A program made the position numbers and the translations under genes. Source: Thermostichus lividus PCC 6715 (lineage in GTDB: Bacteria; Cyanobacteriota; Cyanobacteriia; Thermosynechococcales; Thermosynechococcaceae). Taken from it: 64,000 nucleotides of DNA. Every line of letters starts with the position of its first letter. Within the stretch, counting starts at the first letter, position 1. The stretch is from assembly GCF_002754935.1 (NCBI RefSeq), contig NZ_CP018092.1, positions 1,550,001 through 1,614,000 on the forward strand, given 5' to 3'. Under the pieces are notes generated by a model. That model was not told the origin of the DNA. It searched no databases and saw only the letters and a list, made by a program, of their open reading frames with translations. Positions 19,347 to 61,720 of the stretch are shown here, one piece after another.

Positions 19347-19841
19347 TTAGAGCCATGCGGCCAGAGCAGTCAGCACCCCTAACCCCAGCAAAGCAAGCCA
19401 AATAAAGGCATTGGGTAAGGGGGTTGCCGGGGGTGGTGGCTCTTGGGGCTTTGGGGATGCCGCGGCGGTCGGTTTAGGGATGCCAGCGTAGGGGGACTCA
19501 TAGGGGCGATCGCCCACCTGGGAAAGATCGGGAATTTGACTGTACCACTCAGGGCGGCGCTTGAGCTGGGGTGCCTGCAAAATAGCGAGCAATCGCCGAC
19601 CTTCCTGCCGAGTGTAGCGATCGGGATGGCGCTGTAGCTGCCGACATAGGGCTAAGGCCGCAGCCTGATCTCCTAGGGCACTGTAGGCCATCACGAGCCA
19701 AAGATGGATTTCGCCAGTGCAAACAACATTGCCCTCCGCAAGGGTTGCCGCCTGCTCCAAGAGGGTCACCGCTTTAGAATACTCCCCTTTTTCCAATGCT
19801 TGCTGCCCCCGCTGCAATAGGGCTGACACTTGATGCTCCAT
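19347..19841 (-). CDS. TPR protein with C-terminal membrane anchor, coupled to ureC
   Basis: A 164-residue protein with TPR-type helices over residues 5-95 (LLQRGQQALEKGEYSKAVTL and LWLVMAYSALGDQAAALAL), a proline-rich linker, and a single C-terminal membrane helix, suggesting a tail-anchored protein with its TPRs in the cytoplasm. Its ATG at 19841 shares one base with the ureC stop in TGATG, so translation is probably coupled to urease. The architecture is the same as the TPR gene at 61721. It may assist urease assembly or membrane placement, but this is inference. A TTG one codon upstream is an alternative start. Confidence 0.82.
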   Translation of the reverse strand: MEHQVSALLQRGQQALEKGEYSKAVTLLEQAATLAEGNVVCTGEIHLWLVMAYSALGDQAAALALCRQLQRHPDRYTRQEGRRLLAILQAPQLKRRPEWYSQIPDLSQVGDRPYESPYAGIPKPTAAASPKPQEPPPPATPLPNAFIWLALLGLGVLTALAAWL

Positions 19842-21559
19842 CAAAACAAAAAGTAGCGCTGGGCAAGGGGTAACACGGTGGCGGGTTCACAGGTGAGCAG
19901 TTCACCATCGGCGCGCACCTCGTAGGTTTCTGGATCTACCTCAATGTGGGGCAGATAATCGTTTAGTTTCAGGTCAGCTTTCCGGAGCTGGCGAATATGG
20001 CGCACCGGCAGTACTGGCTTTTGCATAGAGAGTTGTGTGGGGATATTGTTGGCAATACCCGCCTGAGACATAAAGGTCACTGAAGTGGCCGTACAACAGC
20101 CGCCGTAGGCAGCAAACATGGGCTGCATATGCACGGGCTGGGGGGTAGGAATACTGGCGTTGGCATCCCCCATTTGGGCGTAGGCAATCAGCCCTCCCTT
20201 AAGCACCAGTTCTGGTTTGACTCCGAAAAAGGCCGGTCGCCACAGGCACAGATCGGCAATCTTACCCACCTCCACCGACCCCACGTACTCCGCAATGCCG
20301 TGGGTGATGGCGGGGTTAATCGTATATTTGGCAACGTAGCGGCGAGCACGAAAGTTATCGTGGCTGGCAGCAGCATGGCTGGGGTCGCTGAGGTGCCCTC
20401 GCTGTACCTTCATTTTGTGGGCAGTTTGCCACGTGCGGATAATGCTTTCCCCGACCCGTCCCATGGCTTGGGAGTCGGAGGAGATAATACTAAAGGCACC
20501 CATATCGTGCAAAATATCTTCGGCGGCAATGGTTTCGCGGCGAATCCGAGACTCTGCAAAGGCTACATCTTCGGGAATGCTCGGGTCAAGGTGGTGGCAC
20601 ACCATTAACATATCGAGGTGTTCATCTAAGGTGTTGATGGTGTAGGGTCGGGTGGGGTTCGTGGAGGAGGGCAGCACATTAGCCTGACCGCAAACCTTGA
20701 TAATGTCGGGCGCATGCCCTCCCCCAGCACCTTCGGTGTGGTAGGCATGGATGGTGCGGTTTTTGAAGGCGGCGATGGTATCTTCCACAAACCCTGACTC
20801 GTTGAGGGTGTCGGTGTGGATGGCAACTTGGATGTCGTAGGCTTCAGCCACACTCAGGCACGTATCAATGGCTGCTGGGGTGGTGCCCCAGTCTTCATGG
20901 AGTTTGAGGCCAATGGCTCCTGCTTCCACTTGCTCGTTCAGTCCTTGGGGCTGGCTGCTATTGCCTTTGCCCAAAAAGCCGAGATTGACCGGGAAGGCAT
21001 CGGCAGCCTGTAGCATCCGATAGAGGTTCCACGGCCCAGGCGTGCAGGTGGTGGCGTTGGTGCCGGTGGCAGGGCCTGTACCGCCGCCAATCATGGTGGT
21101 GATACCACATGCGATCGCCGTAACAATTTGCTGGGGACAAATAAAGTGAATGTGGGCATCAATACCGCCAGCGGTGAGGATCATGCCTTCGCCAGCGATC
21201 GCCTCGGTGCCAGGTCCAATGATAATATCCACCCCTTCTTGGGTATAGGGATTGCCCGCTTTGCCAATCTTGGCAATTTTGCCGTCCTTAATGCCGACAT
21301 CGGCCTTGACCACCCCCCACCAATCGAGAATCACCGCATTGGTAATGACCACATCCACAGCACCCTCGGCATTAGGGATAGGGGACTGCCCCATGCCATC
21401 GCGGATCACCTTGCCACCGCCAAACTTCACCTCATCGCCATAACAGGTATAATCCTGCTCGACTTCAATGAAGAGTTCGGTATCCGCTAAGCGCAGGCGA
21501 TCGCCCACGGTAGGACCATAGGTTTCCGCATAGGCTTGGCGATCCATCCGATAGCTCAC
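19841..21559 (-). CDS. ureC: urease subunit alpha (catalytic)
   Basis: Catalytic urease subunit with the dinuclear nickel site. The metal-binding HIHF, the carbamylated-lysine segment GLKLHEDWG, the nickel-site AIHTDTLNE and the flap cysteine in MVCHHLDPS are all visible. The chosen GTG at 21559 gives [19 protein letters not shown] and sits 8 bases after GGAG, starting 5 bases after the yraN stop; a reading frame open to 21613 would add 18 unsupported residues inside yraN. The product is 572 residues, the normal length. The order yraN-ureC-TPR suggests an operon. ureA is elsewhere in the window. Confidence 0.97.
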
Positions 21560-21564
21560 GGGTG

Positions 21565-21942
21565 TTACTCCACAGTAAAGGCATCTTCTAAATACTGGTG
21601 TACTCGATAGCATCCCCCCACCGGAGAGGGCTGGTACAGCACCAATGCTACATCAAAGCGACAAGGACTGTCGTGCCATTGGGGATGGGCCTGCAGAAAC
21701 TCCTGAGCGGTGCCAATGAGTTTTTGTTGCTTGCGGTGGGCGATCGCCTCGAGACCGTCAGCATCCCAATTCTGGGGGCGGCGGGTTTTTACCTCCACAA
21801 AGGCCAGCACCCCACCGGGACTGTAAGCCACAATATCTAGCTCGCCCCGACGACAGCCCCAATTGCGGGCTACGATCTGCCACTGTTGCGCCCGCAACCA
21901 CCTCACCACCGCTTCCTCGCCCCCATTGCCAATCCGACGCAT
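21565..21942 (-). CDS. YraN family (UPF0102) endonuclease-like protein
   Basis: A 125-residue protein with the Holliday-junction-resolvase-like core of UPF0102: [20 protein letters not shown] at residues 8-27, [10 protein letters not shown] containing the metal-type acid, and [10 protein letters not shown] with the E-x-K pair. The catalytic pattern is that of the PD-(D/E)XK nucleases, but activity is poorly defined in this family. It starts the probable yraN-ureC-TPR transcript and is divergent from the NTRC gene by about 80 bases. Confidence 0.9.
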
Positions 21943-60299: not shown

Positions 60300-61283
60300 C
60301 TATGCCTCTTGTAGCATGGGTTCAGCAGCGTCTTCGTCGGTGGCTGCGGGGAGGTCGTCAGTCTCTTGTTCTGCCATAGCCGCTTGCTGTTGTTGCAGGA
60401 GTTGCTGACGGTAGCGAGCGGCCATTTCCTCCGCTTTCTCATAGACTAACTGCGGATTTCTGACCATGTCGCCCGGCTCTGGCTCTAACTGTTTGGTGGA
60501 GAGGGAGATACGTCCGCGCTCAGCATCGAGATCAATGATCATCACCTTCAACTGATCATTGACATTGAAGACACTGTGGGGCGTATCAATGTGATCATGG
60601 GAGATTTCGGAGATGTGGAGCAGGCCACTGACCCCGCCGATGTCAATAAAGGCACCGTAGGGCTTAATACCCCGCACCGTCCCAACCACTACTTCGCAGA
60701 CTTCCAGCTTGTTCATCTTACGTTCAACAAGGGCACGGCGATGACTGAGGACAAGGCGGTTGCGCTCTTCATCCACTTCTAGGAATTTTAGGGGGAGCTC
60801 CTCACCGACCAGTTCTTCTTTGTTGACACGGGTACTAATGTGGGAACCGGGAATAAAGCCTCGCAGCCCTTCAATGCGCACTAAGGCACCGCCACGATTA
60901 GTGGCAAAGACCTGAGAGCGCACCGTGGCATCTTCAGCCTGAAGCTGGCGTACCCGCTCCCATGCCCGCATGTACTCAATGCGACGGATGGAAAGGGTAA
61001 GTTGCCCTTCTTCGTTTTCATCCGCAAGAATGAAAAACTCCCGGGTTTCATTGGATTGCAGGACTTCTTCGGGGCTATCGATGCGGTTGATTGACATTTC
61101 TTGAATGGGGATGTAGGCCGCAGTTTTTGCGCCTATGTCAATCAGGGCGCCTTTTGGCTCGATGCTAAAAACTGTCCCTGCTACAATATCGCCGGGATTG
61201 AAATGATAGTCGTATCGGTCGAGTAAGGCTGCAAAATCAGCGTGCGTAAAGCCCACATCTAACGTTTTTTCCTGATTGACCAT
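60300..61283 (-). CDS. rpsA: 30S ribosomal protein S1 (cyanobacterial short form)
   Basis: Three S1 RNA-binding domains, at about residues 30-100 (GDIVAGTVFSIEPKGALIDI), 115-185 (GGALVRIEGLRGFIPGSH) and 195-270 (GTVRGIKPYGAFIDIGGVSG). The 327-residue length is that of the short S1 of cyanobacteria and plastids. The C-terminus is Gln/Glu-rich. pdxA follows with one base between. A long leader lies upstream. Confidence 0.96.
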   Translation of the reverse strand: MVNQEKTLDVGFTHADFAALLDRYDYHFNPGDIVAGTVFSIEPKGALIDIGAKTAAYIPIQEMSINRIDSPEEVLQSNETREFFILADENEEGQLTLSIRRIEYMRAWERVRQLQAEDATVRSQVFATNRGGALVRIEGLRGFIPGSHISTRVNKEELVGEELPLKFLEVDEERNRLVLSHRRALVERKMNKLEVCEVVVGTVRGIKPYGAFIDIGGVSGLLHISEISHDHIDTPHSVFNVNDQLKVMIIDLDAERGRISLSTKQLEPEPGDMVRNPQLVYEKAEEMAARYRQQLLQQQQAAMAEQETDDLPAATDEDAAEPMLQEA

Positions 61284-61412
61284 GCGAGTATGTTCCTAGC
61301 TCCTTTAACGAAAATTAAGATGTATAGTGAGTTCTCAAGCGGGCAGAGTGGGTGCCATACGCAATGATACCAGCGATCGCTCGAACACTTTCTGACTGGA
61401 TCTATAATAGTA

Positions 61413-61640
61413 GCCTAGAGTTCCCGTATTGGCTAGGCACGTCAGAAAAATCCTGCTGCGTCCAGTAAATCAACTGGAGTGGTAGGAGAGCGTGTCCCTT
61501 ATCGGAAGAAAAAGGTGCTGAGGATCGCGGCAGCCGTTGAGATAAGTGCAACGGCGGGCTAGCACTTGGGGTGCATGGGGTGGATGCCAGCTGGCTCCTG
61601 ATCGTTGAACCCGTCGGTCAATCCGTGTCACCCAAGACTC
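61413..61640 (+). ncRNA. candidate structured RNA divergent from rpsA
   Basis: No protein is convincing in the 437 bases between rpsA and the TPR gene. A TATAAT (61403-61408) on the plus strand is followed by a chain of hairpins: GCCTAG/CTAGGC (61413-61437); TCCAG/CTGGA nested in TCCT/AGGA (near 61450-61490); GTGCT/AGCAC enclosing CCGTTG/CAACGG (61515-61565); CTTGGG/CCCAAG (61565-61637). 6S RNA is one possibility, but I cannot identify it. The mirror-strand reading could instead be an rpsA leader. Confidence 0.4.
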
Positions 61641-61720
61641 AACACTGGCTTGCAATATCCCCTGTTTCCTATGTCCTGTTTAAGGTCAAATGTCAGGTTT
61701 GTTGTTGAAATCACTGTGCT

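Follow-up and report, generated by a model that had tools for sequence, protein, structure and literature searches.

The 437 bases at 61284-61720 of the window, the 64,000-nucleotide stretch of the Thermostichus lividus PCC 6715 genome analysed here, are very probably a composite of two unrelated parts: the promoter and 5' untranslated region (UTR) of rps1, followed by genome-private sequence containing a decayed ISKra4 core. The first part, 61284 to about 61438 read on the minus strand, is a housekeeping-type promoter with a short rps1 5' UTR; the translation start region at the end of this UTR is strongly conserved. The second part, from about 61439 to 61720, is private to the genome of Thermostichus lividus PCC 6715, and its core is a decayed insertion sequence (IS) of the ISKra4 family. 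The majority of the stems noted earlier fall in this second part. The region is ordinary in kind, a promoter and leader beside transposon debris.

The boundary between the two parts can be placed by comparison with relatives. The whole region was searched in 58 genomes, including that of the window. All 10 other genomes of the genus, Thermosynechococcus, match only its first 153-156 bases, at 88-96% identity, and have no counterpart of 61439-61720. In G012, a member of the same family, bases 1-167 of the region match at 72%. Averaged over the 11 other sequences, identity to the window is 0.81 at 61404-61423, 0.59 at 61424-61443 and only 0.39 at 61444-61463. On its other side, the region directly adjoins the start of rps1 at 61283. 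The features are collected in Table 1.

Table 1. Features of the region and its two neighbouring genes, in window positions.
Feature	Position	Strand	Remarks
rps1 (rpsA-like), 30S ribosomal protein S1, 327 aa	60300-61283	-	NCBIfam NF005639, 642.9 bits (cut-off 460)
Translation start region GGAGCTAGGAACATACTCGC before the S1 ATG	61284-61304	-	A of AGGAG at 61304; conserved AGGA
Predicted rps1 5' UTR, about 117 nt	61284-61400	-	from the distance to the conserved -10; transcription start inferred
rps1 -10 element TACTAT	61407-61412	-	TANNAT in 12/12; overlaps plus-strand TATAAT 61403-61408
rps1 -35-like element TAGCCA	61430-61435	-	spacing of 17 nt to the -10; present in 12/12 (11 genus genomes plus G012)
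Hairpin	61451-61487	+	z -4.30 for 61440-61500; G-U pairs; lies across the likely end of the IS remnant
ISKra4-family IS remnant	61484-61655	-	transposase C-terminus 61530-61652; outer end approximate, from alignment
7-bp stem GCCGTTG/CAACGGC	61533-61555		inside transposase codons RCTYLNG
TPR-like protein gene, 149 aa	61721-62170	+	weak Pfam TPR matches

The nature of the private part follows from the product encoded at its core. The minus strand of 61530-61652 matches the last 40 positions (382-421 of 422) of the transposase model NCBIfam NF033572 (E 4.1e-9) with 36 bits, a score below the whole-protein cut-off of 205, as expected of a fragment. Over 39 residues this product shares 62% identity with the transposase L017 of G053, a genome of the same class. 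G053 has four copies of 61534-61623 at 74-75%; three retain a 303-aa frame and the fourth is broken into shorter frames. The copy tested, L017, passes the ISKra4 transposase model with 281.7 bits against the cut-off of 205. Transposase matches at E 0.001 occur in 12 of the 39 genomes searched, that of the window included, and in none of the 10 other genomes of the genus. Within its own genome, 61556-61645 has a 90% copy elsewhere; this genome holds two ISKra4 transposase fragments and no full transposase, and no intact one was found in the genus. The remnant itself is not an intact ISKra4 element and has one probable end only, near 61484. The earlier note saw no plausible protein in the region, which is wrong in one sense, as a degraded transposase C-terminus is encoded here. 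The conserved protein frame in relatives that it had named as evidence against its own RNA readings does exist for the insert part, in the form of a dead transposase.

The second fragment, in L002 at 1000-2300 (about 1508760-1510060 of contig C1 of the same genome), is a truncated ISKra4 C-terminus that begins at the same codon as the window copy. The surroundings of L002 contain pieces that recur in this genome, with 22 matches including itself. A MITE-like family was considered and rejected, there being just two partial copies in the genome, with unlike flanks. Judged by eye, the 7-bp stem inside the remnant can still form on the transposase strand of all four G053 copies with the help of G-U pairs, and it is broken in more distant ISKra4 relatives. 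It was therefore rejected as a conserved RNA hairpin and regarded instead as a side effect of the RCxYLNG codons.

The promoter is defined by its conservation upstream of rps1. The S1 strand reads TAGCCA-N17-TANNAT in 12 of 12 sequences, from the 11 genomes of the genus (the window included) and G012, and the distance from the end of this pattern to the S1 ATG is 115-124 nt in all of them; G019, also of the same family, is without it. The pair has the 16-18 nt spacing of a sigma-70-type promoter and matches the consensus at only 8 of 12 positions. This count, made by eye, is below the limit of 9 used in a simple sigma-70 scan, which is why the scan, finding no site of 9/12 or better in the region, missed the pair. 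A simple scan for terminator-like sites also found none in the region. Given the conserved -35/-10 pair, rps1 would be transcribed on the minus strand from a start near 61400. The part of the literature covered by our search contained no mapped transcription start for Thermosynechococcus rps1.

The earlier note had reported a consensus -10 box on the plus strand. The hexamer is present, and it overlaps the rps1 -10 region; it reads TATAAT in 2 of the 12 sequences and TACAAT in 10. A plus-strand promoter for a divergent gene was rejected, as TACAAT is kept in G012, whose neighbour is not divergent, and the rps1 promoter therefore accounts for the hexamer. A plus-strand protein in the conserved block was also rejected, despite a stop-free frame of 51 codons in 9 of the 11 genus genomes. 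This frame overlaps the rps1 promoter. Following a one-base indel, few if any frames are free of stops in the window genome and in G010 (in the window, each of the six frames has at least two), and in G012 none is.

The earlier note described the region as highly structured and proposed, as one of two readings, a plus-strand RNA gene; such a gene, possibly 6S-like, would be transcribed from the TATAAT at 61403. The clustering of self-complementary segments was borne out: five exact 6-7 bp stems lie in 61401-61630, against a dinucleotide-shuffle mean of 1.0, and 3 of 500 shuffles reach five. Five stems are also reached by 7 of the 278 tiles of 230 nt that cover the window, and the surplus becomes weak when stems are counted in all 437 nt, with at least as many in 56 of 500 shuffles. 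The region as a whole is not highly structured, with a fold z of -1.36 on the plus strand and -0.60 on the minus strand. Among 11 pieces folded, two stand out, both on the plus strand of the genome-private part: 61440-61500, for which none of 200 shuffles was as good (the minus strand has z -0.72), and the longer 61440-61560 around it (z -3.19, with all 200 shuffles folding less well).

The TATAAT, the local stems and the fold of 61440-61560 speak for the plus-strand RNA gene, which is nevertheless extremely improbable. The sequence downstream of the TATAAT is private to one genome, the core of the insert is transposase coding sequence on the opposite strand, and the hexamer belongs to the rps1 promoter. 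In G003 only about 65-70 bp separate the conserved block from the start of mscL, which also counts against such a gene. The Rfam covariance search proposed in the earlier note gave no match at the gathering threshold in 61284-61720, neither to 6S RNA nor to tmRNA nor to any other family; the only matches up to E 10, isrD with 14.3 bits and c4-a1b1 with 13.3 bits, stay far below their thresholds. The second copy in this genome, the G053 copies and L014 were likewise without an Rfam match. Elsewhere in the window, 21118-21404 on the plus strand matches Rfam RF02514 (5' ureB sRNA) at full length with 117.2 bits; this match is antisense to the urease alpha-subunit gene (19841-21613, minus strand), and for that reason it most likely reflects conserved coding sequence rather than an sRNA.

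The hairpin within 61440-61500 could be regarded as functional, serving for instance as an insulator or as an RNA end signal between divergent genes. Its low fold z and the G-U pairs that favour the plus strand are in line with this, whereas the lack of a T run and of any relative, in its own genome or above noise in the 58 searched genomes, argues against it, and we consider a function very unlikely. The arms may have met by chance, since the hairpin spans the probable IS end.

The gene beyond the insert is not a regular neighbour of rps1. Relatives of the TPR-like gene lie away from rps1 in 10 of 10 other genus genomes, and the neighbour of rps1 is mscL in G003, a response regulator gene in G010 and a peroxiredoxin gene in G012. 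The IS debris therefore lies at a rearrangement breakpoint.

The other proposal of the earlier note was a long regulatory leader of the S1 gene. Part of it stands, for 61284 to about 61400 only: all 11 genus genomes and G012 share the block made up of promoter and leader. The length does not, the leader being about 117 nt and not 437. A structured leader occupying all 437 bases, with its promoter far upstream, would fit the position directly upstream of rps1; the conserved promoter at 61407-61435, the absence of the upstream sequence from every other genus genome and the unremarkable minus-strand fold leave it hardly credible. As for structure, sister genera have leaders with covarying helices, described below, and within the genus neither strand shows covariation or unusual folding. 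The alignment across genus genomes that the earlier note recommended yielded no covariation on either strand. For 13 leaders from the genus and its two nearest relatives, the sense alifold z is -0.65 (50 of 200 column shuffles are as good), in a set of which 11 are too alike to show much, and the antisense z is +0.27. On either strand, the 127 nt nearest to rps1 fold less stably than shuffles do on average (z +1.09 and +1.48).

Conservation of the leader is concentrated at its front end. Of 109 cyanobacterial rps1 loci collected, 107 begin with ATG, and thinning these to below 70% ungapped identity left 59. AGGA stands 6-11 nt before the ATG in 53 of these 59, and GGAG stands 5-20 nt before AGGA in 40. 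The window reads GGAG-CT-AGGAACATACTCGC-ATG, and its GGAG is therefore nearer than in those 40 loci. Mean information over the 59 loci is 0.76 bits at -1 to -20, 0.08 at -41 to -60 and 0.05 at -100 to -120. Judged from these alignments, cyanobacteria in general conserve the front end of rps1 strongly. The conservation extends to about -16 and includes a G at -2 and a C at -1, which on alignment evidence exceeds what AGGA by itself would need. Ribosomes would accordingly be expected, from this conservation, to enter at GGAG-CU-AGGAA before the rps1 ATG.

Leaders of rps1 in sister genera of the same family look structured, as suggested by compensatory change. In 13 such leaders (set A2), 19 cells are changed on both sides against a shuffle mean of 8.0, and none of 500 shuffles is as high. 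The helix 63-70/89-96 has compensatory changes in six of its eight pairs. The A2 helices are 84.5% paired against 36-45% in slid controls, a comparison that leans toward these helices because they were laid out by eye on the same alignment. A trimmed set of 12 leaders agrees with this. The alifold z is -4.4 in sense (0 of 200 shuffles) and -3.9 in antisense (3 of 200); as the antisense value is also low, the choice of strand depends on the helix 63-70/89-96, where 10 G-U cells against 4 A-C cells favour the mRNA strand. Upstream of rps1 in L122-L137, the leader of these sister genera carries, in addition to the covarying helix, a conserved CUCCU that is able to pair with AGGAG. A covariance model built from the sister-genus leaders (R2) matches one place each in 12 of the 29 genomes of the order, exactly the 12 training genomes, and none of the 11 genus genomes. 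Its only independent match is weak (20.9 bits, E 0.0038) and lies at the leader of L131, which had been left out of the model. The window leader is not matched, and the best match in L109 (6.3 bits) lies outside the leader.

A second type of leader was found in 17 more distant loci (set A1), which share GGUGUAGGC-NGCAC...GUGC...UACAUC, then AGGAGG, before rps1. The model R1, trained on these 17 sequences chosen by eye, has exactly one match per genome in 69 of 388 cyanobacterial genomes at E 0.01, a count from which some matches may be missing because stricter filters were used; the two weakest have E values of 0.003 and 0.008. In all 30 of the 69 loci that were fetched, of which at least 7 are identical in motif to training sequences, the start of rps1 lies 29-38 nt downstream on the same strand (distances by subtraction). 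The covariation is slight, and the case for the R1 element is therefore one of sequence conservation and of occurrence only at rps1. In the R1 hits (L147:1408-1467, L195:1405-1462, L218:1501-1558 and others) a conserved GGUGUAGGC...UACAUC hairpin is followed by AGGAGG, some 30-40 nt ahead of the rps1 ATG. A usual Shine-Dalgarno sequence would lie closer to the start codon, and this AGGAGG may serve as a standby or decoy site. A leader of the GGUGUAGGC type occurs, for example, in Oscillatoria sp. PCC 10802 (L197). The window leader fits neither structured type, R1 or R2; with R1 its best score is 5.2 bits (E 1.3, filters off), and the 11 genus genomes have no R1 match. Rfam 15 at the gathering threshold matched none of 12 relatives' loci, among which both types are represented. 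No description of a cyanobacterial rps1 leader was found in the literature searched, which consisted mostly of papers outside subscription, and the novelty of these leaders is unproven.

What these elements do can be read in two ways. On the first reading, free S1 would bind the rps1 leader, compete with ribosomes and so damp its own synthesis. Such feedback is plausible because it is described for gamma-proteobacteria and because relatives carry conserved elements at the same place, and by analogy we give it nearly an even chance. The compensatory changes in sister-genus leaders and the second conserved hairpin type, unique to rps1, count for regulation. The genus leader, which shows no covariation, folds worse than shuffles (z +1.48) and matches neither structured type, counts against it, and the AGGAG near the ATG of the window leader counts against S1 feedback. 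On the second reading, which has about an even chance, the conserved block is a promoter and ribosome binding site only, through which S1 does not regulate itself. The genus leader shows neither structure nor covariation, and both the -35/-10 and the start-region patterns would follow if nothing more than a promoter and a start site were conserved; the reach of the start-region conservation to about -16, with the G and C next to the ATG, and the structured leaders of relatives speak against this restriction. Returning to S1 control, we tentatively suggest, at somewhat less than even odds, a general scheme for cyanobacteria. They would control S1 synthesis through the rps1 leader, by a start region read by S1 throughout the phylum and by lineage-specific folded modules upstream, of which there are at least two types and Rfam 15 matched neither. 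Thermosynechococcus would have a minimal, weakly folded version, and this is what the window would carry, with the scar of an insertion sequence close upstream of the -35.

Comparison with known systems places each part of the region. The remnant shares with ISKra4-family insertion sequences the last 40 positions of the transposase model and differs from them in being a fragment only. The leader belongs, like those of other ribosomal protein genes (for example, the 20 in the consulted part of PMC7247131), directly to a ribosomal protein gene. The two structured cyanobacterial rps1 types would be of the ribosomal-protein-leader kind, whereas in the window leader no structure was found. In the portions available, PMC7247131 does not contain the terms 'S1 leader' or 'cyanobacteri' and has 'ribosomal protein S1' as a word start twice, PMC6847405 has S1 only in its reference list, and PMC2864571 does not contain 'rpsA' or 'protein S1'. 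The closest parallel is rpsA of gamma-proteobacteria, where, according to the sections of PMC10931766 consulted, S1 feedback acts through the conserved translation start region and is abolished by a canonical Shine-Dalgarno sequence. The window shares with it, as far as those sections describe it, a conserved start region directly before the S1 gene and S1 as the expected ligand. The gamma-proteobacterial region has a specific fold and is without a canonical Shine-Dalgarno sequence (PMC10931766, same sections), whereas the window has AGGAG and AGGAA and no fold was found. Two cyanobacterial groups carry conserved, apparently folded rps1 leaders, which could be a switch for self-control. If S1 binds these folded leaders, the gamma-proteobacterial type of S1 feedback would be directly testable in cyanobacteria by reporter fusion.
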